Assembly: GCA_016281085.1 (NCBI GenBank)
Contig: JAEEHY010000013.1
Coordinates: 1 to 40,069, forward strand
Reading direction: 5' to 3'
Origin: Lachnospiraceae bacterium
GTDB taxonomy: Bacteria > Bacillota > Clostridia > Lachnospirales > Lachnospiraceae
DNA length: 40,069 nt
Shown: positions 1,230 to 37,885 of the stretch, in pieces
Layout: every line of letters starts with the position of its first letter
How positions within the stretch are numbered: the stretch's first letter is position 1
Notes under the pieces: generated by a model
The model's database searches: none
Seen by the model: only the letters and a program-made list of their open reading frames with translations
What the model was told of the DNA's origin: nothing
Translations under genes and position numbers: made by a program

Positions 1230-3815
1230 ATGAAGAAGTTTAAGCTTTTTGACAGCAAAGGCGCAATATATCTTTGCGCTTTTATAGTACCTTTTTTGAT
1301 GGTACAGATTTTTTATGCGATCTGCAGGATATATCCATACGGTCCTTTTTCGATATTGACGGGCGATATGGATCTTGAGTTTGTCAATTTCTATACATAT
1401 TATCTGAATACCTTCGTTTCAAAAAACGATCATTTTTATATGCTGGCCAAGACCCTTGGCGGAGACTATCCCGGACTTGCGGCATTTCAGCTTCATGATC
1501 CGCTGCTTTTCGTACTCCTGCTTTTTCCCGGGGAGAGGATAGCAGCCGGCGTGGAGCAGTACTTTGCCCTGCAGATATCGGTGGCAGGGCTGTGTACATC
1601 GGTACTGCTTAACGGCAGATATAAGAGATCATGGATGTCCCTGCTGTTCTCGACAGCCTATTCCTTCTGCTCGTTTTTCTTCGGATATCTGGTACTTACC
1701 ATTTATTTCGGTGCGCTTGCACTGCTTCCTCTTGTTATATATTTCTTTCTTAACGCGCTGGAAGATAAGAAATATGAAATTCCTTATATCATAGTCACGG
1801 CTCTGTATATTTATATTAATTATCATGTGGGCTTTATGCTTGTTATCTTCCTTGTACTTATGTTTGTTTCCCGCCTGATCACAGACATGGAAGTGTTAAA
1901 GAAGCTCCCGATGTTTATACTTTCGGGTGCCACCGTGATCATGCTGGACGGTTATTTCCTGATAAGGACCGGTCTTTCCCTTCTTGGTGAGAAGACGACT
2001 TCGGGAGCGGATTACGGTATATACAGAAGATTTGCGCTTAACCAGCTGTTTGCCAATCTGTTTTCGGGCAGTTCAAGGAATGATCTTATGCCGCTTATCT
2101 ACTGCTCCGTGGCAGCTGTGTTCTTTGCCCTTATTTATTTTATGTCAAAGGAATACAGCATAAGGGAAAAGCTTGCCAATCTCTTTCTTCTGGCTGCGGT
2201 GGCGGTAAGTATGTGGATCAATATACTTGATACGGTATGGCACGGCTTCAACAATCCCGAAGGCTTCTACTGGAGATATGCCTACTTCATAAGCCTTACC
2301 CTGATCGTTCTTGGGTATAAGGGCTTTATTTCCCTTGCATACCGGAGTGATGACAGAAAGAAATCCATAATAAAGGCATTCGTTTCAGCCGGAGTGATCT
2401 ACCTGTATATGGTATGGCTGGCAGTTTCGGGAAATCACTACATGGATCTTCCGAGACATATCATAAATGGTGTTATGATCGCGATGCTCCTTATGGGGAC
2501 GCTCATGCTTCTTGAGCAGAATAAGCTCAGAATACTCGGGCCGATACTGCTTCTTGTGATTTCGGCAGCCGATATGATGTACAATGCCAATGTGGTATAT
2601 ATGAAGCTTAATTCCTATGACGGACAGCTTCCCGAAATGAGCCGCTTCGTGGAAGATTACACATCGATAAAGGATGTGATCGACAGTGTCAAAGCAGGGG
2701 ATCCCGGAATGTATCGTATTGAGAAGGATTTCGACAGAGCGGTCAATGATCCTGCCATGTTTGATTATATAGGTATGTCGCATGACAGTTCATGTGAGAA
2801 AGATGAGCTTATCAACTGGCTTAAGAACTTCGGCTTCTGTAAGACGGAATATTACACGTATTATAACGGAGGAAGTACATCCTTTGTTGATATACTGTTC
2901 GGTATCAGGTACTATATCTCGAGGTTTGATGAGACATTGAAGCCTTATGATAAGCTTCCTTATGAAGGAAAATACCATGCATTTGAGAACGGATATGCAC
3001 TTCCGATGGTTTACAATGCACCTGAGGAATTCAGAAATTACGTTTTTGACATTAATAAGAATACCTTTGCAAAGCAGAATGAGATCGCCGCGATGTGGGG
3101 AAGCAAAAAAGATATCTATCTCAGGGCTGAGCCGGTTCAGGAACTGAGGAATGTCAGGGAGGATGAAGAGGGGCACTATATACGGACGGCAGATGAGGGA
3201 TATATTGATTATAATATAACCGTCAGCGAGGAAAAGCCACTGTATCTGTTCTTCTCGGCGCCGGACAGACAGGGAGCACAGCTGTACATAAATGATGAGT
3301 ACGTGGATCCTTATTTTACCGAAACACACTGGGGTGTGATCTGTGCGGGGAGATATGGCATGGGTGATACGGTGAAGATAAGCCTTAAGCTTATTGATGA
3401 GGATATAAGGATAACTGAAGCGGGCTTTTACTACGAGGACGAAGAAGCGATACGTGAATGGAGCAGGCTTGCAGGGGCGTTAAACGAGGGTATTGGTGAG
3501 CTTAATGAGATCACCAGTTCGCACCTGACATTTAGTACCAGTTCCGCTGAAGACAGGCTGGTCGTAGTGTCTCTTCCATATGACAGGAGCTTCAGGATAA
3601 CCGTTGACGGTAAGAGGGTGAAGCCGGTTCCTGCGCTTGAAATGCTTATGGGCATGGAAATACCGGCAGGTGAACACAGTGTTGAGATGAGGTATATTCC
3701 AAGAGGTACAGTAGTGGGAGCACTTGTGTCGGCAGCCGGTATCGTGATGTTTGTTATTTTCTTTTGTATAAGGTTCCGCAGGGAACAGTCTTTATCTCAT
3801 AATCATTCCGATTAA
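1230..3815 (+). CDS. YfhO-family multi-spanning membrane protein (GT-C-like)
   Basis: 861 aa; many hydrophobic segments, N-terminal 'FNFYTYYLNTF'-type region and large extracytoplasmic C-terminal part ending in a TM, typical of YfhO proteins. Confidence 0.8.
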   Translation: MKKFKLFDSKGAIYLCAFIVPFLMVQIFYAICRIYPYGPFSILTGDMDLEFVNFYTYYLNTFVSKNDHFYMLAKTLGGDYPGLAAFQLHDPLLFVLLLFPGERIAAGVEQYFALQISVAGLCTSVLLNGRYKRSWMSLLFSTAYSFCSFFFGYLVLTIYFGALALLPLVIYFFLNALEDKKYEIPYIIVTALYIYINYHVGFMLVIFLVLMFVSRLITDMEVLKKLPMFILSGATVIMLDGYFLIRTGLSLLGEKTTSGADYGIYRRFALNQLFANLFSGSSRNDLMPLIYCSVAAVFFALIYFMSKEYSIREKLANLFLLAAVAVSMWINILDTVWHGFNNPEGFYWRYAYFISLTLIVLGYKGFISLAYRSDDRKKSIIKAFVSAGVIYLYMVWLAVSGNHYMDLPRHIINGVMIAMLLMGTLMLLEQNKLRILGPILLLVISAADMMYNANVVYMKLNSYDGQLPEMSRFVEDYTSIKDVIDSVKAGDPGMYRIEKDFDRAVNDPAMFDYIGMSHDSSCEKDELINWLKNFGFCKTEYYTYYNGGSTSFVDILFGIRYYISRFDETLKPYDKLPYEGKYHAFENGYALPMVYNAPEEFRNYVFDINKNTFAKQNEIAAMWGSKKDIYLRAEPVQELRNVREDEEGHYIRTADEGYIDYNITVSEEKPLYLFFSAPDRQGAQLYINDEYVDPYFTETHWGVICAGRYGMGDTVKISLKLIDEDIRITEAGFYYEDEEAIREWSRLAGALNEGIGELNEITSSHLTFSTSSAEDRLVVVSLPYDRSFRITVDGKRVKPVPALEMLMGMEIPAGEHSVEMRYIPRGTVVGALVSAAGIVMFVIFFCIRFRREQSLSHNHSD

Positions 3816-5541
3816 CGTAATCGAGCAGATAACCGCCGATCTCGTTCTCATTGGGAGCGGGGTCGGCTTCTATATCTCCGCAGCTTAAATAGCTTCCGTA
3901 CTCATCATTCAGAACAAGGATCATATCGGGATATCTGTCGGGATTCATAGTGTAGTACGGTTCCAGACGTTCGCTGTTAAACGGCGTCCGCCAAGTGGTC
4001 GGTGCGGCGCATTTAAGGTCTGTGCACATATATCCGAACGGCAGGATCCTGGTAATAAAGATAGTGCCTGTGCCGCTGTCTGTATTTTCAAGGTTCCCGC
4101 TCTGGCAGTATTTATGGATCGTAGAAGTGACTACATTGTAGGCAACGTAATGATCTGCCGTTGTATACAATCCTTTGGCCGGCCCGTATGAAATCTTAAA
4201 ATTGAGCATCTGTACCGGAGCATCGCGGTAGATGTTTACGAGTCTTAAAGTCATTGTCTGCACAAGACAGGCACAGATGATCGCTGTGCTGCACACGAGA
4301 AATACAGATCCGGTGTGCTTTATCGGAAGCATTTCTTTTGCAAACTGCTCCAGGATCAGTATGCATCCGATGCTTGAAATAAAATGTCCCATAGACAGTA
4401 CATACAGATATCCGTTTGAGGAGTAGCTGTATACGAGCGAGAATATAAGTCCGCTGAGTACCAGAGTACAGAACAGCTTCATATCTTTCTTCTTCTGCAT
4501 AAAAAAGAGAGGAAGTGTAAACAGACAGAGGGCTGTTTGAATGTATCCCGTATGCCCAAGTGAACATATGAAAAGATCTATGAACAGGATCACGTCCGCT
4601 ATGAAGATAAGAAGATAAAATGTATTGTTCCTGAAACGCTTGACAAAGGATGCGGCAAAAGTAACGATCACAAGGATATATGCGGCATATGCTCCGTACC
4701 CGAACACCTCATTTATTCCGATGAAGAATTTCTTTATGGGATATATGAGGCTGGTGCCGTGTTCCTCATCACTCAGTACATAAGGTACTGCCCGGAAGAA
4801 ATCGGAGAGTGAGACCGTGCACAGAAGGTAGATGAAAAACAATACGGCCGGTATCGCTATTCCGATGAAGGTATATTTTAATATTTCAGGAAGACGGGAA
4901 CTGTCTGCCGGCTGTGCAGCTTCGTTCCCCTTTGCGGAGCGCCCGGAACTGTATATTATGATACCGGTTACGATGATTACTGCCAGCCAGGCAAGACTGA
5001 GTGTCGGCAGGCTCAGTACACTTAATGCAAACAATATGCCTGAAATGATCAGATGATTTCTGTTCAGGCTCCTGAAATAATGGTAAACAAGAAGCATGGA
5101 CATAAGAAACAGCTGAACAGACATCGTGTAGTATGACATGGTGGCTATGTTCAGATGTGTATAGAACATCAGGCTTATTGAACATGCCAGAGAGGTAAAT
5201 ACGGAGGCATGCTGTTTGAGGATATTGAACATGATGACGGAATTCACGGTACTCATTACCACGAACATTATCCTGAAATAAAGGATAACCCCCGTGTTGC
5301 CGCCCATGATCAGATAATACAGGGCATAGAAGGGCAGAAGAATGACGGATGAGAGCTGTGTCGGAAACCATTCGTGCTTGAAAATACTGTCACCCGTAAA
5401 GAAACGGTGAACAGTTGAAAAATAGAAGGTTTCATCTGACCAGCAGAAGCTGTACATGCCCCTTATCAGCAGGATCAGAGCGCTTAAGGCTATTATAATA
5501 TATGGGTAGCATGTGTTGATTTTCTTTAGTGCGTTTTTCAT
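3754..5541 (-). CDS. Multi-spanning membrane protein, probable GT-C/PMT-like glycosyltransferase
   Basis: 595 aa; 'IRGMYSFCWSDETFYFSTVHRFFTGDSIFKHEWFPTQLSSVILLPFYALYYL' resembles the GT39-type first loop; ~12 hydrophobic segments; SD-like GGAG upstream. Confidence 0.65.
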   Translation of the reverse strand: MKNALKKINTCYPYIIIALSALILLIRGMYSFCWSDETFYFSTVHRFFTGDSIFKHEWFPTQLSSVILLPFYALYYLIMGGNTGVILYFRIMFVVMSTVNSVIMFNILKQHASVFTSLACSISLMFYTHLNIATMSYYTMSVQLFLMSMLLVYHYFRSLNRNHLIISGILFALSVLSLPTLSLAWLAVIIVTGIIIYSSGRSAKGNEAAQPADSSRLPEILKYTFIGIAIPAVLFFIYLLCTVSLSDFFRAVPYVLSDEEHGTSLIYPIKKFFIGINEVFGYGAYAAYILVIVTFAASFVKRFRNNTFYLLIFIADVILFIDLFICSLGHTGYIQTALCLFTLPLFFMQKKKDMKLFCTLVLSGLIFSLVYSYSSNGYLYVLSMGHFISSIGCILILEQFAKEMLPIKHTGSVFLVCSTAIICACLVQTMTLRLVNIYRDAPVQMLNFKISYGPAKGLYTTADHYVAYNVVTSTIHKYCQSGNLENTDSGTGTIFITRILPFGYMCTDLKCAAPTTWRTPFNSERLEPYYTMNPDRYPDMILVLNDEYGSYLSCGDIEADPAPNENEIGGYLLDYVNRNDYEIKTVPCGTLYKRK

Positions 5542-7014: not shown

Positions 7015-7797
7015 ATGTTATTGGTAAATGCCGATGATTTCGGAAAGAACGAAGAGATAAACAGGGCAGTATGCGAAGCATTTGAAAAGGGCTACATTAA
7101 TTCGGCCACACTTATGACAAATATGCCCGGAGCCCATGAGGCATATAAGCTTGCAAAGGATAACGGATTTGCTGACAGGGTAGGGATACACCTTAATATA
7201 ACGGAGGGTATGCCGCTTACGGAGGGGATCCGGAACAATCCGCTGATCTGTTCCTCTGACGGAAGCTTCAATGCAGCGTTTTATCACAATACAAAATACA
7301 GGCTGTATATGGATCGTCAGTCGATAGACAGGATAAAAGAGGAGCTGGATGCGCAGATAGGACTGTTTCTTGAAATGGGATTTACGCTCCTTCATATAGA
7401 TTCGCATCATCATGTACATACCAATTATCCTGTATACCGGGCTCTTAAGGAGCTTGGAGTGAAATATGACTATGAGTATATAAGACTGTCAAGGAACCTG
7501 TATAAAGGCGGAAATCCCGTTAACGGGATATACAAAGGTCTGTATAATGCGAATGTAAAGAGGCTTGCGCGCCATACTTCATCGTATTTCGGTGATTACA
7601 GGGATCTGATGGGGTATTTCGGACTCGATCCTGCGAGGACGACTGACAGAATGCGCAGTTCATCAGGTCAGACGGATGTTTTCTTCGAGAAAAATGATGT
7701 TGAGATAATGGTCCATCCCATGTATGACAATTCCGGAAAGCTCACGGATACTGATATTCCGATGGATGAGCAGAATATCATACATTCTTGCCATTAG
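7015..7797 (+). CDS. ChbG/YdjC-family carbohydrate deacetylase
   Basis: 260 aa; MLLVNADDFG metal-binding motif, IDSHHHVH, EIMVHP; starts one nt after the dehydrogenase stop. Confidence 0.85.
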   Translation: MLLVNADDFGKNEEINRAVCEAFEKGYINSATLMTNMPGAHEAYKLAKDNGFADRVGIHLNITEGMPLTEGIRNNPLICSSDGSFNAAFYHNTKYRLYMDRQSIDRIKEELDAQIGLFLEMGFTLLHIDSHHHVHTNYPVYRALKELGVKYDYEYIRLSRNLYKGGNPVNGIYKGLYNANVKRLARHTSSYFGDYRDLMGYFGLDPARTTDRMRSSSGQTDVFFEKNDVEIMVHPMYDNSGKLTDTDIPMDEQNIIHSCH

Positions 7798-7816
7798 TTA
7801 TGTTTGATGATATAAT
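7788..7816 (+). promoter_or_regulatory. Candidate promoter TTGCCA-N17-TATAAT upstream of rfbA
   Basis: TTGCCA 7788-7793 (overlapping the end of the deacetylase CDS), spacer 7794-7810, TATAAT 7811-7816. Confidence 0.6.
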
Positions 7817-7829
7817 TTTAACGATTATG

Positions 7830-7864
7830 AGTATCGGAAGGGGATAGTATGCCCTTTTGATACT
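7830..7864 (+). promoter_or_regulatory. Leader stem-loop before rfbA (13-bp stem, two G-U pairs, 9-nt loop); terminator/attenuator or 5' stabiliser
   Basis: AGTATCGGAAGGG (7830-7842) pairs with CCCTTTTGATACT (7852-7864); follows the candidate TATAAT by 13 nt; only a weak T-rich tract follows. Confidence 0.55.
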
Positions 7865-7905
7865 TCTTTGTGTATTGTATTATTATTTTGAGAGGAGTAT
7901 GTCCA

Positions 7906-8775
7906 ATGAAGGGAATCATTCTTGCAGGCGGCTCGGGAACGAGGTTGTATCCGCTTACGAAAGCTGTATCCAAACAGATGATGCCGGTCTATGACAAACC
8001 GATGATCTATTATCCGTTGTCTATTCTTATGCTTGCCGGTATAAGGGAAATACTGATCATATCAACACCCAGGGATCTGCCGATGTTCCGTGAACTGTTC
8101 GGGACGGGAGAGCAGCTGGGACTGTCCATGGAATATGCAATACAGGAACAGCCCAGAGGTCTTGCGGATGCTTTTATCATAGGTGCCGATTTCATAGGTG
8201 ATGACAGTGTGGCGCTTATTCTCGGTGATAATATTTTCTACGGACAGAGCTTCTCCAGGCTGTTGAGACAGGTGGCAGAGAGGGAAAAGGGTGCTACCAT
8301 ATTCGGTTATTATGTAAGGGATCCGCGGGAGTACGGTGTGGTTGAGATAGATGATAACGGAATGGCACTGTCGATAGAGGAGAAACCGGAGAATCCCAAG
8401 TCCAATTATGCGGTGCCGGGGTTATATTTTTATGACAATGATGTGGTAAATATCGCAAAGAATGTTAAGCCGTCCGCCCGTGGGGAAATAGAGATAACAA
8501 GTATAAATAACGAGTATCTGTCCCGTGGTGAGCTGCATGTCGAGACGCTCGGCAGGGGTTTTGCATGGCTTGATACAGGTAATCATGATATGCTTCTTGC
8601 GGCGGCTGATTTTGTAAGTTCAATACAGAAACGCCAGGGTATGTATGTTTCGTGTATCGAAGAGATCGCATACAGAAGAGGCTTTATTTCAAAGGAGCAG
8701 CTTCTTGAACTTGCCAAGCCGCTCATGAAGACGGAATACGGCAAATATCTTACCGAAGTGGCCAACGGACTGTAA
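7906..8775 (+). CDS. rfbA: Glucose-1-phosphate thymidylyltransferase
   Basis: [55 protein letters not shown]; start at ATG 7906 with AGGAG upstream (track start 7870 too long). Confidence 0.95.
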
Positions 8776-8834: not shown

Positions 8835-11800
8835 ATGGGTAGTAACAGGAACGATAACAACAAAAACGGGAAAAAGCCGGTCAATTACACATCGGTCGAC
8901 TGGAATGAATACAGGGTTAACAAGGACACGGATAGGCCTCAGCCCGGAAATTTCAGGGTTGACGGGCCGGATGATGATGTTTTTGATGAACGTATTTTCA
9001 GGGGAATTGACGAGATAAACGACAGCCTTGCTTCGGGTATTTCCGCAGATGGGAATTATTCACGAAGGGAAACGAAAAACAGCGGATCCGAAAGGAAGAA
9101 TTCCAAAGGCAGAAAGAAGTCTTTAAATACCAAGCTTGAAGAAATAAGCAGGGAAAAAGCCAAAAAAGACAGATCCAGGAAGGAAAAGGCCGAGCTGGAC
9201 ATACTTGAAAAGAACATTATTGAGATCACGTCCGGAACTCATGATGATTTTCTGGCGGGCGCTGTTGAGATCGTAAATAAGGCGCTTGAAGAGAAGGCCG
9301 GTAAGGAACGTCTGGAAGATACTGATGTAAACGGAACTTTTGAACTGCCCAAGCTTGACATACATTTCGGTGATACTGCCGAACTTAAGAATATAAGGGA
9401 TGCCATAGAAGGCACGGATTTTGGCAAGATGCTGAATGAGAAGGATCAGAAAGCGGGTATCGATCCCGATTTCTTTGATGATCCCGGACTTTCTGTGGAG
9501 GTATTTCATAAGGATGAAACACACAGGAAGAAGGAGCATGTCAAAAAACCAGATCAGACCTCATCGGTAAAGGAGTCTGCGGCTTCTGCAAAGAGAATGG
9601 AAAAGTCAGCCGCAGACAGACGGAAGGGAACATCCGCAAAGAAACGGGATGAGTCATTTTTAAAGGATGAAGACATTCTTGCGATAAATAAACAGGCTGA
9701 GGAACTTGCGGATAATAACGAAATACTCGCAATTAAGAAGGAGGCCGAGGCACTTATAAGGGATGTTGATGTTTCGTCGATTAAGGAGCAGGCCAGATTA
9801 CCCGAGAATAAGCCTGTTCAGAAACGTGTGAAGAAACAGACGGAAACACCCGAAAAGAAACCCGAAGAGAGGCGTGCGAAGAAACAGGCGGAATTAGCTG
9901 AAAAGAAACCCGAAGAGAGGCGTGCGAAGAAGCAGGCGGAATTAGCTGAAAAGAAACCCGAAGAGAAACGTGTAAAGAAGAAGGCTGCTGCACCTGCAGC
10001 GGATGATGACTTATCGTCAATAAATAAACAGGCCGGTTTACCTGCAAGGAAAAGCGAAGACAGACGTGCTCAGAAGAAACAGGAGGATTCACCCGCAAGG
10101 AAACGTTTGAAGAGACCCGAAGAAGACATGTCTGCACCTGTTGCTGTTGCGGAGAAAAAGAGTACAGAAAAGCCGGTTATCAAGAAGAAAAAAGCCGTAA
10201 CGGATGAACCGGCACAGATCAGGGAGAGCTCAAAGAAAAAGGAAAAGACCGGTTCGACAAAGAATAAAGCCGAAGAAAAGGTGATCATAAGGTCGGACGA
10301 ACTGGCGGAAGATAAGAAGGAACGCAGAGCTTTAAGGAAAAAGAAAAAAACCAAAGAAAGCGCTGCTGAAGGAAGCGTTAAGCAGGAGATCAAAGCTGCA
10401 AAAAAGGACGCCGCCGGGAAGACAGCCGGTGATAACGACAGTAATGTTCCTTCACAGGCAGGCGATAAAAAGAGAAAAAATGCTAAGGCAGGTAAGAAAG
10501 GTACCTCTGATTTCAGGGCGAAATCAGCAGATTGGAAGGATAAAGAAACAATTAAAAAGACCGCAAAGAAGGTAACCTTTGCAGAGAGAAAGAAAGCATT
10601 TTCGACAAGGATAAAGAATGTCACACCGTTACAGTGGACGATAGTTGCAATGGCACTTATCATCTTTGTTTCCGGGATCATGACATCAGCTGTTTACGCG
10701 AATTATCAGGGTGAGCAGAATAAAAAGATCGCGCTTTCAAATCTTAATCAGTACAGGGAGGATGACAGTTACACCGCTGCGGTTGAAAGCGTGACCCAGG
10801 AGATGCTGCCTGAGGTAACGGAAGAACCGGAAGAGATTCAGGCCAGGATGCTGTCGCTTGAAATGTCATCTGTTGAAAAAGATTTAAAGATCAGGCTTGT
10901 GGATGATGAGGACAACCTGGTAAAGGATGTTACCTGGAGCGTTACAGTAAAGGAAGATGAGGGTGACGATCAGTCTGATGAGGGAGATGATGCGGGAGAT
11001 GATGAGACATCACAGGGTGAAGTATATGAGGATGATGATCTGGACGGTGTCATCTACATTACGGATATAGCAGCCGGTGAATATGCGGTAACACTTAATC
11101 CCAGCGAGTCACTGGCAGATTATATTCTTCCTCAGGAAAAGCAGCTGGTTTCCGTAAAGGCAACCATTGAATACAAGGTTATCGCAAATATAAGGGACGA
11201 GATCAAAACAGAGAAAGAAGTAAATGTGGCGCTGGAGGATCCCAACGGTAATCAGGCGGCGGATGTTGAGACCGCACCTCCCGCGAACAATGATACGGTC
11301 GAATGGGTGGAATCGTCAAAGACAGCTAACGGAGAGGAATTTGTCGAAGCCACTCCCGATCTGAGCAAGACCGCGGTTTCGGTTAAAAAGGACACGGGCT
11401 TCCTGGCGGCTCTTGGCAATATCGGAAGAAATACAAAAACATCACTTGCGAAAACTTCTGTTCTTGGATTTAAGATGCCGATGGGTTATCTCGTGGCGGA
11501 AAATGAGAACATTGACAACAGCGAGCCTGACATAGCGGCACCTAAACCCACAGAGGCACCTACACCTACGGAAGCACCGGAGCCTACGGAGGCACCGGCA
11601 CCCACGGAAGCACCGGCACCCACGGAGGCACCTAAGCCGACTGAGGCACCCAAGCCCACAGAGGCACCCAAGCCCACAGAGGCACCGGCACCTACTGAAG
11701 CGCCCAAGCCCACAGAGGCACCCAAGCCCACACCTACTCCGACACCGACACCGGCGCCGACGGGAGGAGATCTTCTGTTGGATAATCCTGCATCCGGTAC

Positions 11801-12956
11801 TTTACTGGATACCGGATCGAAGACAAATGAGGACGGAAGTCTGTCAATATCAGGTCCTTCGTCAGTCATTGTCGGTTCGACCATTACGCTTTCCGCGCAG
11901 TATTCACCTTCAAGCGCAACAGTAAACTGGGGTGGATCGGACAGTGAGATCATTTCGGTCAGTGATAACGGAGATACCTGTACGGTCAAGGGAATTAAGG
12001 AAGGTACGGCTACGGTAACCGCCACATGCAGTAACGGCAAGACAACAACCATGACTGTAACCATTACGAAAGAAGAAGGGAAATACAGTGATGATGCCAA
12101 GCTGTATGATGCCAGCAAGAATCTGCTGTATGTATTGGACGGCGGTGAATACAGGCCGGCTACCTATGCTGATTACAAGAGCGGAAAGTTCACTACATAT
12201 TATCGTAAGCAGGAAGGTTTCCTGTATACGGGCTGGCAGGATATTGAAGGCAAAACTTACTATTTCAGAAGAGACAATACCTATGTTACCGGAACCCAGA
12301 TCATCCAGGGTATCAAATATACCTTTGGCGAAGACGGTGCGTTGTCCAAGGGATCGGGAACACTGGGAATAGATGTTTCGAAGTATCAGCCGAACATTAA
12401 CTGGTCGTCTGTTAAGGCATCGGGAATTAATTATGTTATCATCAGGTGCGGTTACAGAGGAGCCAGTACGGGTGTACTCATTCAGGATCCGTATTTTACG
12501 TCACATATTAAGGGAGCCAAGGCAGCAGGCCTTAAGGTCGGTGTTTACTTCTTTACAACGGCGCTCACGGAGACGGAAGCCGTTGAAGAGGCAAGTATGT
12601 GTGCGGCACTGTGTTCGGGATACGGAATAAATTATCCGATATTTATTGACTGTGAGAACAGCTCAAGGCCCGGATATAATTCGTTGTCTGCATCGGAGAG
12701 GACCCAGATAATAAAGGCATTCTGCAATACAATAAGGTCTGCCGGATATACCCCCGGCGTATATGCGAATAAGACATGGCTCACCAGCTATATGAATGTA
12801 TCGGCTCTTTCGGGATGCAAGATCTGGCTGGCACAGTATACTGCCGGATCACCGACATATTCGGGAAGATATGATATATGGCAGTATACGTCAAAGGGAC
12901 GTGTCGACGGTATTAGCGGATATGTTGATATGAACCAGTCATTTCTGGGATACTAA
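8835..12956 (+). CDS. Single-pass membrane protein: long charged cytoplasmic region, TM, acidic/beta region, Pro-rich linker, Big2-like domain, cell-wall-binding-like repeat, C-terminal GH25 lysozyme
   Basis: 1373 aa; TM 'WTIVAMALIIFVSGIMTSAVYANY' near residue 600; PTEAPx repeats; 'ISVSDNGDTCTVKGIKEGTATVTATCSNG' (Big2); 'GFLYTGWQDIEGKTYYFRRDNTYVTG' (CW-binding-like); GH25 motifs GIDVSKYQPNINWSSVKASGINYVIIRCGYRG, GVYFFTTA, IFIDCEN, IWQYTSKGRVDGISGYVDMN. Confidence 0.9.
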   Translation: MGSNRNDNNKNGKKPVNYTSVDWNEYRVNKDTDRPQPGNFRVDGPDDDVFDERIFRGIDEINDSLASGISADGNYSRRETKNSGSERKNSKGRKKSLNTKLEEISREKAKKDRSRKEKAELDILEKNIIEITSGTHDDFLAGAVEIVNKALEEKAGKERLEDTDVNGTFELPKLDIHFGDTAELKNIRDAIEGTDFGKMLNEKDQKAGIDPDFFDDPGLSVEVFHKDETHRKKEHVKKPDQTSSVKESAASAKRMEKSAADRRKGTSAKKRDESFLKDEDILAINKQAEELADNNEILAIKKEAEALIRDVDVSSIKEQARLPENKPVQKRVKKQTETPEKKPEERRAKKQAELAEKKPEERRAKKQAELAEKKPEEKRVKKKAAAPAADDDLSSINKQAGLPARKSEDRRAQKKQEDSPARKRLKRPEEDMSAPVAVAEKKSTEKPVIKKKKAVTDEPAQIRESSKKKEKTGSTKNKAEEKVIIRSDELAEDKKERRALRKKKKTKESAAEGSVKQEIKAAKKDAAGKTAGDNDSNVPSQAGDKKRKNAKAGKKGTSDFRAKSADWKDKETIKKTAKKVTFAERKKAFSTRIKNVTPLQWTIVAMALIIFVSGIMTSAVYANYQGEQNKKIALSNLNQYREDDSYTAAVESVTQEMLPEVTEEPEEIQARMLSLEMSSVEKDLKIRLVDDEDNLVKDVTWSVTVKEDEGDDQSDEGDDAGDDETSQGEVYEDDDLDGVIYITDIAAGEYAVTLNPSESLADYILPQEKQLVSVKATIEYKVIANIRDEIKTEKEVNVALEDPNGNQAADVETAPPANNDTVEWVESSKTANGEEFVEATPDLSKTAVSVKKDTGFLAALGNIGRNTKTSLAKTSVLGFKMPMGYLVAENENIDNSEPDIAAPKPTEAPTPTEAPEPTEAPAPTEAPAPTEAPKPTEAPKPTEAPKPTEAPAPTEAPKPTEAPKPTPTPTPTPAPTGGDLLLDNPASGTLLDTGSKTNEDGSLSISGPSSVIVGSTITLSAQYSPSSATVNWGGSDSEIISVSDNGDTCTVKGIKEGTATVTATCSNGKTTTMTVTITKEEGKYSDDAKLYDASKNLLYVLDGGEYRPATYADYKSGKFTTYYRKQEGFLYTGWQDIEGKTYYFRRDNTYVTGTQIIQGIKYTFGEDGALSKGSGTLGIDVSKYQPNINWSSVKASGINYVIIRCGYRGASTGVLIQDPYFTSHIKGAKAAGLKVGVYFFTTALTETEAVEEASMCAALCSGYGINYPIFIDCENSSRPGYNSLSASERTQIIKAFCNTIRSAGYTPGVYANKTWLTSYMNVSALSGCKIWLAQYTAGSPTYSGRYDIWQYTSKGRVDGISGYVDMNQSFLGY
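9852..9995 (+). repeat. Three 48-bp tandem repeat units encoding EKKPEERRAKKQAELA-type repeats
   Basis: Units start at 9852, 9900 and 9948; first two nearly identical at DNA level, third diverged (EKKPEEKRVKKKAAAP). Confidence 0.85.
11547..11762 (+). repeat. 18-bp tandem repeats encoding PTEAP(K/A/E/T), ending in PTPTPTPAPT
   Basis: About ten PTEAPx units read directly in the translation. Confidence 0.9.
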
Positions 12957-12977: not shown

Positions 12978-13535
12978 ATGGGCAAGATAAAGGTAGAAAC
13001 ATGTAATATTGAAGGGCTTAAGGTTATAACGCCTACAGTATTCGGCGACAACCGGGGTTATTTTATGGAGACCTATAACTTCAATGACTTTAAGGAGGCC
13101 GGGATCGATATGGAATTCGTCCAGGACAATCAGTCGGCATCCAAAAAGGGAGTGTTGAGAGGCCTTCATTTCCAGGTCGATTACCCCCAGGACAAGCTTG
13201 TGCGTGTGATAAGAGGTGAGGTGTATGACGTAGCCGTTGACATGCGTGCAGGTTCGAAAACATACGGACAGTGGTACGGAGTAAGGCTGTCCGAAGAGAA
13301 CAAGAAAATGTTCTTTATTCCCAAGAATTTTGCCCATGGTTTTCTTGTTTTATCGGATTATGCGGAATTCGTATACAAATGCACGGATTTCTATCATCCG
13401 AATGATGAGGGCGGGATAATGTGGAATGATCCCGAACTTAATATAGACTGGCCTACAGAACCCGGAATGGAACTCACGATTTCCGATAAGGATACCAGAT
13501 GGCCGTCATTTAATGAGATAAGAAAGGACAGATAG
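12978..13535 (+). CDS. rfbC: dTDP-4-dehydrorhamnose 3,5-epimerase
   Basis: 185 aa; GDNRGYFMETYN, FVQDNQSASKKGVLRGLHFQ, KLVRVIRGEVYDVAVDMR, FFIPKNFAHGFLVLSD. Confidence 0.95.
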   Translation: MGKIKVETCNIEGLKVITPTVFGDNRGYFMETYNFNDFKEAGIDMEFVQDNQSASKKGVLRGLHFQVDYPQDKLVRVIRGEVYDVAVDMRAGSKTYGQWYGVRLSEENKKMFFIPKNFAHGFLVLSDYAEFVYKCTDFYHPNDEGGIMWNDPELNIDWPTEPGMELTISDKDTRWPSFNEIRKDR

Positions 13536-13541
13536 GAACAT

Positions 13542-14531
13542 ATGTCCCGAAAGAAGAAGCTTATTACCGCAGTTACGGTTGCAGTAGTGGCACTTAATCT
13601 GTATATAATCTTTCACCACAATCCGTTGGCGGACAGAACACAGGAAATAATCAAGAAGATCATTTCCTGTGTTATTTTGGAAGGATTTTATATAGTCTTC
13701 ATTAAGATGTATGACAAGATCATCATTCTTCCAATAGAACTCTACCAGAACAGGAAGCTTATATGGAAGCTTGCGAAGAACGACTTCAAGACAAGGTTTG
13801 CCGGTTCGTATTTCGGTATTTTCTGGGGTTTTGTTCCTCCCATTATCACGGTTCTTCTGTACTGGTTTGTGTTCGGAGTTGTAATGCCGAACAGAGCGAC
13901 CAATATAAAAGGTGATATGGAGCTTCCGTATATTTTGTGGCTGATCGTGGGAATAGTTCCGTGGTTTTATTTTTCCGAGGCTATTTCCGGAGGCACCAAC
14001 GCATTGCTTGAGTACAATTATCTTGTCAAGAAGGTTGTATTTAAGATCAGCATACTTCCTATCATTAAGATATTGTCTGCATTATTTGTACATGTTTTTT
14101 TCGTTTGTTTCACATTGATATTACTTGCGTGCTACGGATTTCTTCCAGATCTTTACACGCTGCAGCTGATCTACTATTCATTCTGTATGTTTATGTTTGT
14201 TCTGGGACTGAGTTATATAACCTGTTCCCTTATTGTGTTTTTCAGGGATCTGGGTCAGATGATTGCCATAGCGCTGCAGGTCGGTATATGGGCAACGCCG
14301 ATATTGTGGAATCTGCATCTGCTTGATAACAAGCCGGTGATACGCTTCATAATAAAGCTCAATCCCATGACCTATATAGTTGAGGGCTACAGAGGTTCGA
14401 TCTTTGACAAGATCGGGTTTTGGGAGACTTTCTATTCCACAGCATATTTCTGGATACTTACCGCATGTACCTTTGCTGTTGGAGCACTTGTGTTTAAGAG
14501 ATTGAAGATACATTTCGCAGATGTGTTGTAA
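13542..14531 (+). CDS. wzm: Polysaccharide ABC exporter permease (Wzm/TagG family) with ~65-70-aa N-terminal extension
   Basis: WKLAKNDFKTRFAGSYFGIFWGFVPPIITVLLYWFVFG...LNPMTYIVEGYRGSIF; N-terminal extra hydrophobic segment KKLITAVTVAVVALNLYIIF. Confidence 0.9.
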   Translation: MSRKKKLITAVTVAVVALNLYIIFHHNPLADRTQEIIKKIISCVILEGFYIVFIKMYDKIIILPIELYQNRKLIWKLAKNDFKTRFAGSYFGIFWGFVPPIITVLLYWFVFGVVMPNRATNIKGDMELPYILWLIVGIVPWFYFSEAISGGTNALLEYNYLVKKVVFKISILPIIKILSALFVHVFFVCFTLILLACYGFLPDLYTLQLIYYSFCMFMFVLGLSYITCSLIVFFRDLGQMIAIALQVGIWATPILWNLHLLDNKPVIRFIIKLNPMTYIVEGYRGSIFDKIGFWETFYSTAYFWILTACTFAVGALVFKRLKIHFADVL

Positions 14532-14532
14532 A

Positions 14533-15825
14533 ATGGAAAATGAAAACAGTCAGGTTGCCATTTCGGTCAACCATCTTACAAAAATATATAAGCTGTATGA
14601 CCGGAACAGGGACCGCCTGAAGGAAGCTCTGCACCTTGGTAAGAATATCAATTTCAGAGAGCATTATGCCCTTAATGATGTAAGCCTCGAGGTTAATACG
14701 GGAGAGACGGTCGGAATAATAGGTACCAACGGTTCGGGCAAGTCAACCATACTTAAGATAATCACCGGAGTACTTAATCCGAGCGGAGGAGAGGTGAAGA
14801 TAAACGGAAGGATATCGGCGCTTCTTGAGCTCGGAGCAGGCTTCAATATGGAGTTCACAGGTATTGAAAATATTTATCTGAACGGAACCATGATAGGCTT
14901 CTCCGAAGAGGAGATAGACGAGAAGCTTAATGATATTCTTGAGTTTGCCGATATAGGGGATTTCGTATATCAGAAGGTCAAAACCTATTCGAGCGGTATG
15001 TTTGTGCGACTGGCTTTTGCGGTCGCAATCAACATAGATCCGGAGATACTTATAGTTGACGAGGCTCTTTCTGTCGGAGATGTATTTTTCCAGAACAAAT
15101 GCTACCGCAAGTTCGAGGATTTCAAGAAACAGGGTAAGACCATTCTTTTTGTAAGTCATGATCTTTCATCGATAAGCAAATACTGTGACAGGGTCATCCT
15201 TCTTGAGAAGGGCAGGAAGATCGGAGAAGGCGGTCCCAAGGAAATCATCGACATGTACAAGAAGGTGCTTGTCGGACAGCTGGATAAGCAGAGTGACACA
15301 GGAAAGAGCGGTAAGATAAGTACAGGCAGCAAGTGGAAAGACAGAATGCAGCTTAATCCCGATAAGGATGAGTACGGAAGCGGACTGGCGGAATTCGAGG
15401 ATTACTGTGCATATGATAAGACAGGTGAGATTACCAATACTATAATAAAGGGTGAGGAATTCACCGTTAAGGTCAAGGTTCGTTTCTTTGAGACCATTCA
15501 AGATCCGATACTTGCGGTGTCGTTTAAGAACAGGCAGGGAACAGAGATAACCGGTACCAATACAATGTTTGAGAAGTTGAATACGGGAATGCCGGGACCC
15601 GGAGATGTGATGGAAGCCACCTTTACCCAGAATATGAGCCTTCAGGGCGGAGAGTATCTGGTATCATTAGGCTGTGTGGGTTACAGGGAAGGTGAATTCA
15701 CCGTATATCACAGACTGTATGACGTGTTTAATCTGACGGTCATATCTTCAAAGGATACAACGGGATTCTATGATATGGACAGTGTTGTGACGGTAACACT
15801 TAAGGACAGGCAGGAGGAAGCTTAA
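14533..15825 (+). CDS. wzt: Polysaccharide ABC exporter ATPase (Wzt) with C-terminal substrate-recognition-like domain
   Basis: Walker A GTNGSGKST, signature YSSGM, Walker B ILIVDEALSVGD; ~150-aa beta-rich C-terminal extension (VKVKVRFFETIQDPILAVSFKNRQGTEITGTNT) like Wzt C-domains. ATG at 14533 preferred over 14521. Confidence 0.92.
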   Translation: MENENSQVAISVNHLTKIYKLYDRNRDRLKEALHLGKNINFREHYALNDVSLEVNTGETVGIIGTNGSGKSTILKIITGVLNPSGGEVKINGRISALLELGAGFNMEFTGIENIYLNGTMIGFSEEEIDEKLNDILEFADIGDFVYQKVKTYSSGMFVRLAFAVAINIDPEILIVDEALSVGDVFFQNKCYRKFEDFKKQGKTILFVSHDLSSISKYCDRVILLEKGRKIGEGGPKEIIDMYKKVLVGQLDKQSDTGKSGKISTGSKWKDRMQLNPDKDEYGSGLAEFEDYCAYDKTGEITNTIIKGEEFTVKVKVRFFETIQDPILAVSFKNRQGTEITGTNTMFEKLNTGMPGPGDVMEATFTQNMSLQGGEYLVSLGCVGYREGEFTVYHRLYDVFNLTVISSKDTTGFYDMDSVVTVTLKDRQEEA

Positions 15826-36199: not shown

Positions 36200-37885
36200 A
36201 TGTCAGATCAGAACAATAATAATAACAACAATAACAATAACGAAGGTGATTACGAAGTATACTGCCAGATGTGCAGAAGAGGCAAAAGTCAGGTCAGCGA
36301 TATGTTCAAGCTGTTTGACGGTATGTATGTCTGTTCGGACTGTATGCATAAGACTATGGATACTATGGGACAGTTCGGCTTTTCACCTCTGTCACTAAAT
36401 CCGTTCAATATGAACGGTTCCAATTCCAATCCGTCCGCATCTTCCGATGAGAACAGCGCAAAGACTTCCGGAGGCGGAGTACCGCTCGGAAGTATATTCG
36501 GTGATCTTAATAAGCAGTCAGCCGATGCTCTTAAGGAAATGAAGGAAGCGGCAGCAGGCGGAGACAGTCCCGAGGCCGGCAATGATGATCCTGATGGTGA
36601 TAAGGGGGATACCGACGGAGGCAGCAGTATTGACAATGGGGCATATCAGGGATTTCCGGGTATCAGTTTTCTTAATATGTCCGATATTCCGGGCTTATTC
36701 GGCCAGAGGACCAAGGTGAAGAAAAAGGGGAAGAGAACCACTCCCCTGGTAGATCTGAGCAAGATCCCCCAGCCGCATAAGATCAAGGAAATGCTTGATG
36801 AGTATGTGATCGGACAGGAAAATGCCAAGAAGAAGATTTCGGTTGCGGTATACAATCATTACAAGAGGATAGCGGCGGAGGAATTCCGTAAGGACAAGTT
36901 CGGAGAGGAATTCAAGGACGTTGATATAGAGAAGTCGAACATGCTCCTCATAGGGCCTACCGGCTGCGGTAAGACATATCTTGTCAAGACACTGGCCAGG
37001 CTTCTGGATGTGCCGCTTGCGATCGCCGATGCTACATCTCTTACGGAAGCAGGATATATAGGTGATGATATCGAGAGTGTTGTAAGCAAGCTGCTGGCTG
37101 CTGCCGACAATGATGTTGAGAAGGCAGAGACCGGTATCATTTTCATAGATGAGATAGATAAGATAGCCAAAAAGCAGAATACGCATTCAAGGGATGTTTC
37201 CGGCGAATCGGTGCAGCAGGGAATGCTCAAGCTGCTTGAAGGCAGTGAGATAGAGGTTCCGGTGGGATCCAATTCCAAGAATGCCATGGTGCCGCTTACC
37301 ACTGTTAATACAAAGAATATTCTGTTTATCTGCGGCGGTGCTTTTCCCGATCTTGATGAGATAATAAAGCAGAGACTCCGCAAGCAGACATCGATCGGAT
37401 TTAATGCAGAGCTTAAGGATGCACTGGACAAGCGCAAGGATATCCTTAAGGATGTAACGGTGGAGGATATCAAGAAGTTCGGTATGATCCCCGAGTTTGT
37501 CGGAAGACTTCCGATCATAGCTCCGATGGAGGGACTTAATGAGGATATGCTTGTTGATGTTCTTAAGGAGCCAAAGAATGCGATCATCAAACAGTATCAG
37601 AAGCTGCTTGCAATGGATGAGGTGGAGCTTGACTTTGATGAAGAGGCACTTCATGAGATTGCCAAGAAGGCAATGGAGAAGGATACGGGCGCGAGAGCTC
37701 TAAGATCAATAATAGAGGATCTGATGCTTGATATCATGTATGAGATACCCAAGGATGACAATATCGGAAGGGTTACGATAACCAAGGATTACATACTGGG
37801 AACGGGCGGTCCCGTGATAGACCTTCGGGGAGGCGGAATGAGCTTTGCCGAAAGGGAGAGGCTCAATAAACTGGCGGAGGCTTAA
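36200..37885 (+). CDS. Divergent ClpX-family AAA+ unfoldase
   Basis: Zinc-finger-like CQMC-x19-CSDC, GPTGCGKT, ADATSLTEAGYIGDD, GIIFIDEIDKIAKK, DVSGESVQQGMLKLLEG, IGF loop (TSIGFNAE); poly-Asn N-terminus and long Gly/Ser/Asp-rich insert. Confidence 0.93.
   Translation: MSDQNNNNNNNNNNEGDYEVYCQMCRRGKSQVSDMFKLFDGMYVCSDCMHKTMDTMGQFGFSPLSLNPFNMNGSNSNPSASSDENSAKTSGGGVPLGSIFGDLNKQSADALKEMKEAAAGGDSPEAGNDDPDGDKGDTDGGSSIDNGAYQGFPGISFLNMSDIPGLFGQRTKVKKKGKRTTPLVDLSKIPQPHKIKEMLDEYVIGQENAKKKISVAVYNHYKRIAAEEFRKDKFGEEFKDVDIEKSNMLLIGPTGCGKTYLVKTLARLLDVPLAIADATSLTEAGYIGDDIESVVSKLLAAADNDVEKAETGIIFIDEIDKIAKKQNTHSRDVSGESVQQGMLKLLEGSEIEVPVGSNSKNAMVPLTTVNTKNILFICGGAFPDLDEIIKQRLRKQTSIGFNAELKDALDKRKDILKDVTVEDIKKFGMIPEFVGRLPIIAPMEGLNEDMLVDVLKEPKNAIIKQYQKLLAMDEVELDFDEEALHEIAKKAMEKDTGARALRSIIEDLMLDIMYEIPKDDNIGRVTITKDYILGTGGPVIDLRGGGMSFAERERLNKLAEA
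36212..36241 (+). repeat. (AAY)10 triplet tract encoding ten consecutive Asn
   Basis: aacaataataataacaacaataacaataac read directly. Confidence 0.95.

Follow-up and report, generated by a model that had tools for sequence, protein, structure and literature searches.

GH25 genes of polysaccharide loci are a known kind of gene, and AtlE/EpaU and YccB are the nearest relatives of the case described here. AtlE/EpaU is the GH25 N-acetylmuramidase of the epa polysaccharide locus of Enterococcus faecalis, whose action requires the decorations of the enterococcal polysaccharide antigen (EPA) and releases EPA (PMC12208459, PMC13343894). YccB, which combines GH25 with an Ig-like (YjdB/Big_2) domain, lies just downstream of the cwps operon for cell wall polysaccharide (CWPS) of Lactococcus lactis in all strains examined there, and its variants track the CWPS type (PMC10675428). 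Here, we analyzed a stretch of 40,069 nucleotides from a Lachnospiraceae bacterium (contig JAEEHY010000013.1 of assembly GCA_016281085.1; hereafter, the window), in which a GH25 gene is located between the dTDP-rhamnose genes rfbA (rmlA) and rfbC (rmlC). Comparative sequence analyses showed its domain order, its catalytic residues, its linkage to rml and wzm-wzt genes, a tail-less paralogue in the same family and a constrained N-terminal tail with three motifs conserved in the genus. The reading that we prefer, and to which we give about an even chance, is that the gene encodes a bitopic muramidase dedicated to the rhamnose polysaccharide exported by the Wzm/Wzt transporter of its own operon, with the tail tethered to a cytoplasmic partner. 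In the open-licence papers searched, we found no description of the membrane-anchored, long-tailed form or of its placement among the rml genes of Lachnospiraceae.

The gene is a single open frame, and AAAGGG ahead of it is plausible as a ribosome-binding site. The first ATG, GTG or TTG was used as the start codon, transmembrane segments (TMs) were called with a hydropathy window, and topology was judged from hydropathy together with domain content. The parts of the predicted protein are as follows:

8835-12956, + strand: tailed membrane-anchored GH25 protein (LONG type), 1373 amino acids (frame, Pfam, orthologues and tree)
8835-10628, + strand: predicted cytoplasmic tail, residues 1-598, K/E-rich with three 48-bp repeats (EKKPEERRAKKQAELA) (composition and structure model)
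8895-8915, + strand: tail motif 1, residues 21-27 (VDWNEYR), W23 invariant (20-row genus tail alignment)
10272-10305, + strand: tail motif 2, about residues 480-490 (EKVIIRSDELA), E489 invariant and S487 nearly invariant (genus alignment)
10506-10538, + strand: tail motif 3, residues 558-568 (SDFRAKSADWK), S558, F560, R561 and W567 invariant (genus alignment)
10638-10694, + strand: TM, residues 602-620 (hydropathy; helix in structure models)
10836-11384, + strand: outer prealbumin-like (SpaA-like) module, residues 668-850, with an acidic insertion (genus conservation; beta-sandwich in the model)
11537-11758, + strand: PTEAP repeat stalk, about residues 902-975 (tandem array at 11537-11732; predicted local distance difference test score, pLDDT, below 40 in the model)
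11862-12059, + strand: Big_2 Ig-like domain, residues 1010-1075 (Pfam, over cut-off)
12228-12344, + strand: choline-binding-like repeat, residues 1132-1170 (Choline_bind_3 barely below cut-off; fold match to LytC)
12369-12914, + strand: GH25 muramidase domain, residues 1179-1360 (Pfam E=1.6e-33; catalytic D1180, D1272 and E1274)

An earlier note on this DNA had described a lysozyme with a charged N-terminal half of about 600 residues and one TM, and this architecture was confirmed: 598 Lys/Glu-rich residues precede the only hydrophobic segment of the 1373 (residues 602-620), and the portion C-terminal to it is net acidic. Hydropathy revealed no N-terminal hydrophobic segment in the 1373-residue protein, which argues against secretion through a signal peptide of the AtlE type. 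Domain content and hydropathy point to an N-in bitopic topology, with the C-terminal half outside the cell. The PTEAP stalk, the Big2-like domain and the GH25 domain of the earlier description were likewise recovered, as a tandem array and as Pfam matches over the cut-offs. The acidic loop that it had reported (about residues 704-737) proved to be an insertion inside a conserved module that it had left unnamed, with a mean column identity of 69% within the genus. PF17802, the SpaA-type prealbumin-like family, had no Pfam match in this module of the window protein; among the relatives it scored 25.2 bits in the SHORT paralogue described below (cut-off 23.1) and 22.5 bits in locus L145. A search of the Protein Data Bank (PDB) for sequence relatives of the module found none. 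The cell-wall-binding-like domain was supported less firmly, since Choline_bind_3 (PF19127) reached 24 bits in the window against a cut-off of 27, while three relatives scored 32-36 bits.

The GH25 match (PF01183) covered profile positions 1-180 of 180 with 117 bits (cut-off 27). Regarding the catalytic Asp/Glu residues, whose absence the earlier note had named as evidence against its proposal, D1180, D1272 and E1274 were invariant in 167 homologous GH25 domains (32 from the genus, 95 LONG and 40 SHORT) and aligned with the residues that are catalytic in characterised GH25 enzymes, including LytC. The protein is a predicted N-acetylmuramidase. Both sequence and fold searches placed LytC and other GH25 lysozymes as the nearest solved relatives. 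Specifically, LytC of Streptococcus pneumoniae (PDB 2ww5 and 2wwc) ranked first by both sequence and fold for the half that carries the wall-binding repeat and GH25, at about 23% identity across the aligned region. LytC is not known to have such a tail or a prealbumin-like module.

AtlE/EpaU shares with the window protein a GH25 domain in a rhamnose-polysaccharide locus, a wall-binding region and a disordered stretch, whereas it carries a signal peptide at residues 1-24 and an N-terminal catalytic domain (PMC12208459, PMC13343894). No long cytoplasmic tail, prealbumin-like module or rmlA-rmlC position is described for it, and its wall-binding repeats (GW or DUF5776) differ in type from the choline-binding-like repeat of the window. 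YccB, compared by description only, also differs in that its gene (513-2091 bp) is located downstream of the operon and, in the strain discussed, in the opposite direction, with no tail described (PMC10675428). These likenesses raise the possibility, which we consider real although we lean against it, that the protein is a Lachnospiraceae counterpart of AtlE/EpaU, that is, an autolysin that recognises its own polymer through the wall-binding repeats and trims polymer-bearing peptidoglycan for shedding, cell separation or wall loosening, the tail serving only to anchor or space the enzyme and binding nothing in the export complex. The dependence of the enterococcal enzyme on polymer decorations and its release of EPA (PMC12208459, PMC13343894), the adjacency of YccB to cwps with variants following the CWPS type (PMC10675428), the first rank of LytC, a muramidase with wall-binding repeats, in the fold search, and the existence of a SHORT paralogue with no tail all fit such an autolysin. 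It leaves unexplained, however, why a tail of more than 100 residues is kept under purifying selection in nearly all Wzm/Wzt loci and why the tail motifs are invariant in the genus.

Further conservation analyses covered the genus and the family, with relatives that were mostly metagenome assemblies. An orthologue was present in 36/36 other genus species searched, and the order rfbA-GH25-rfbC-wzm-wzt was found in nearly every genus contig covering the region, with gaps mostly below 100 bp; in L037 and L038, the flanking rml genes were gone and wzm-wzt were kept. The family search, based on a profile of the TM and the outer module in a set where similar genomes are over-represented, recovered members in named Lachnospiraceae including Eisenbergiella, Acetatifactor, Kineothrix and Butyrivibrio, and no strong member outside Lachnospiraceae among 392 genomes of the order and 291 of the class. 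Weak outer-module matches (E of about 1e-4) in other Lachnospiraceae and other families were examined where DNA had been fetched (L242-L244); these proteins of about 1380 residues lack GH25 and carry TMs at either end, and they were treated as SpaA-like surface proteins and not as members.

Outside the genus, the usual order was LONG GH25 - rmlB - rmlA - SHORT GH25 - rmlC - wzm - wzt, in which the gene for a 360-residue protein encodes an RmlB-type dehydratase. The SHORT paralogue (e.g. L109:10685-11998) has about 430 residues, with a TM near residue 10, and is located between rmlA and rmlC; it shares with LONG the prealbumin-like module, GH25, the operon and the catalytic residues, and lacks the tail, stalk and wall-binding repeats. 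It was found in 35/77 tailed loci outside the window's genus. Within the genus no SHORT copy was seen, and the LONG form occupies the rmlA-rmlC position. The earlier note had also reasoned that homologues found mainly outside polysaccharide loci would weaken its proposal; rml genes were present within the fetched stretch in 105 of the 110 distinct full-length homologous loci. The remaining five were L037 (which has wzm-wzt), L142, L147 and L150 (all three with the gene close to where the fetched DNA stops) and L145. The association with rhamnose loci is therefore strongly supported, both in the genus and across Lachnospiraceae, while the coupling that the earlier note drew from it, between precursor supply or export and wall opening, is still something that we infer.

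Tail presence was compared with the type of exporter. In a family sample of 49 distinct loci, 39 tailed copies occurred with Wzm/Wzt and 9 tail-less copies with a Wzx flippase; in the 40th Wzm/Wzt locus, L186, the start was unclear. Another 22 tailed loci had no visible exporter, with flanks that were mostly short. The loci of the tail-less copies contained rmlB, often glf, rmlA and rmlC, an initiating sugar transferase and Wzx. These tail-less long GH25 proteins (L218-L223 and L238-L241, genus g34, in rml-glf-Wzx loci) included MucBP domains in L218. In the GH25 tree, the tail-less genus was placed beside the window's genus and inside the tailed group, so the tail was probably lost there. One tail loss that coincides with a switch of export mode is suggestive and is not statistical proof. 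Because the tail-less copies in Wzx loci are still accompanied by rml genes, the data favour export over precursor supply as the coupled process, on a single evolutionary contrast. Regarding co-occurrence, across 76 genera represented by a single genome each, 13 of which carried the family strongly, Wzt_C was over the cut-off in 12/13 genera with the family versus 35/63 without it (Fisher p=0.013) and rmlC was present in 13/13 (Fisher p=0.11), p-values that are a guide only since the genera are mutually related. In those 12 genera, Wzt was within 20 kb on the same contig; the exception among the 13 was G446.

That a huge charged tail is unusual, as the earlier note had stated, holds for GH25 enzymes generally, and the two other GH25 enzymes of the same genome have only about 20 residues ahead of the TM; within its own family, the tail is typical. 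It had at least 100 residues in 100/101 distinct full-length copies outside the single Wzx genus. Complete genus copies had tails of 157-585 residues by scan, with the window tail (598-601) at the long end. The 598 residues comprise 17.7% K, 7.2% R, 11.0% E and 8.7% D (about 25% K+R and 20% D+E), and the three 48-bp repeats form a tandem array at 9825-9966. In an AlphaFold2 model, pLDDT was below 50 for most of residues 230-556, which is consistent with disorder and is not proof of it; isolated helices appeared elsewhere, two of them at conserved motifs, including a short one at 559-567 in motif 3. The three motifs are established within the window's genus, where motif 2 takes the form EKIIIRSEEL (near 480-490) and motif 3 SDFRKKSADWK (558-568). 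A family-wide tail motif was sought by regular expression (48 versus 19.8 in shuffles), an excess inflated by relatedness, and none is claimed. A Trp close to the N terminus was frequent in the tails, although missing in 35/101. Acidic Tyr-rich repeats (EDEEYY), possible phosphorylation targets, were seen in the tails of L122, L139, L146 and others; the window tail is almost Tyr-free.

The tandem repeats, a tail length that varies from 109 to 585 residues across the family with poorly conserved sequence, and a much faster divergence than in the rest of the protein could suggest that the tail lacks any specific function and is simply low-complexity sequence that has expanded and drifts fast, in which case what matters would be the anchor and the outer domains alone. 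Relative to the nearest species (L034, an 89%-identical orthologue), the ratio of nonsynonymous to synonymous substitution rates (dN/dS) reached 0.38 for the tail, compared with 0.04-0.15 for the outer domains; another pair gave 0.16 for the tail versus 0.09. Since both tail values are well below 1, the tail is protein-coding under relaxed but real constraint, and this, together with the near-universal retention of at least 100 residues outside the Wzx genus and the three genus-wide motifs, makes drift very improbable. It could also be argued that the tail brings the enzyme to the machinery of division or of elongation, so that septal or growing wall is cut and the place in the operon reflects co-regulation only. 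MapZ-like bitopic wall proteins are a precedent for such positioning, and short aromatic-acidic motifs in a bitopic protein whose cytoplasmic part is disordered would suit an adaptor of this kind. Division proteins, however, are near-universal, whereas the family is confined to some Lachnospiraceae and tracks the rml/Wzm-Wzt locus, and no motif known to bind FtsZ or GpsB was recognised; we consider this explanation improbable.

According to the preferred reading, a muramidase dedicated to the exported polymer, the catalytic half outside the cell would reach the peptidoglycan through the extended stalk, and GH25 would cut glycan strands near the site where the polymer exits the membrane or is attached, which would open the mesh or trim polymer-bearing peptidoglycan. 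The membrane anchor would keep cutting local, and the disordered tail would act as a flexible tether on the cytoplasmic side, docking to a partner through its short motifs. This partner would most likely be the operon's own complex for export or synthesis (Wzt or the glycosyltransferases), placing cutting at export. A stricter version, in which the tail binds Wzm/Wzt or the polymer-loading complex, the wall is cut only where and when finished polymer emerges, and the tail was lost upon the switch to Wzx, appears unlikely. Several observations weigh against the dedicated muramidase. Co-location and co-loss do not equal physical contact, and Wzt and the glycosyltransferases are candidate partners of the tail. 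All nine tail-less Wzx copies came from one genus and thus constitute a single contrast. The presence of Wzt_C in the 35 genera lacking the family indicates that the family is not required for ABC export. Tail sequence and charge sign vary by genus, from poly-acidic Tyr-rich to poly-basic, which argues against a single conserved interface family-wide. Lastly, a few homologues occur in other contexts, L145, beside DUF6077, being a true one.

The neighbouring genes agreed with the position between rfbA and rfbC that had been proposed:

7870-8775, + strand: rfbA/rmlA, upstream neighbour (TIGR01207 over cut-off)
12978-13535, + strand: rfbC/rmlC, downstream neighbour (TIGR01221 over cut-off)
13542-15825, + strand: wzm-wzt ABC polysaccharide exporter, Wzt with a polymer-binding Wzt_C domain (PF01061, PF14524)

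The GH25 gene is separated from rfbA by 59 bp and from rfbC by 21 bp, wzm-wzt follow, and all are on the same strand. At 7797-7870 the window lacks rmlB, although this gene is upstream of rfbA in many genus species. The genome carries rmlB (on contig C122) and rmlD on other contigs, and hence the window polymer probably still contains rhamnose. The minus-strand gene at 3754-5541 encodes a 595-residue protein with no Pfam or NCBIfam match, a divergent upstream neighbour kept in many genus species; its equivalence to the GDSL-like gene at the same place in another genus was rejected, as no homology was detectable. Near the end of the polysaccharide locus, positions 36200-37885 encode a ClpX-type AAA+ ATPase (TIGR00382 over cut-off) whose N-terminal part is longer.

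How long surface polysaccharides pass through and become fixed in the thick Gram-positive wall is poorly understood. The tailed, SHORT and Wzx-type tail-less forms provide a natural comparison set. If the proposed role is true, a muramidase anchored beside the exporter with a cytoplasmic arm would, in a family that is major among gut and rumen bacteria, link the export of polysaccharide to the opening of the wall in a concrete and testable way.

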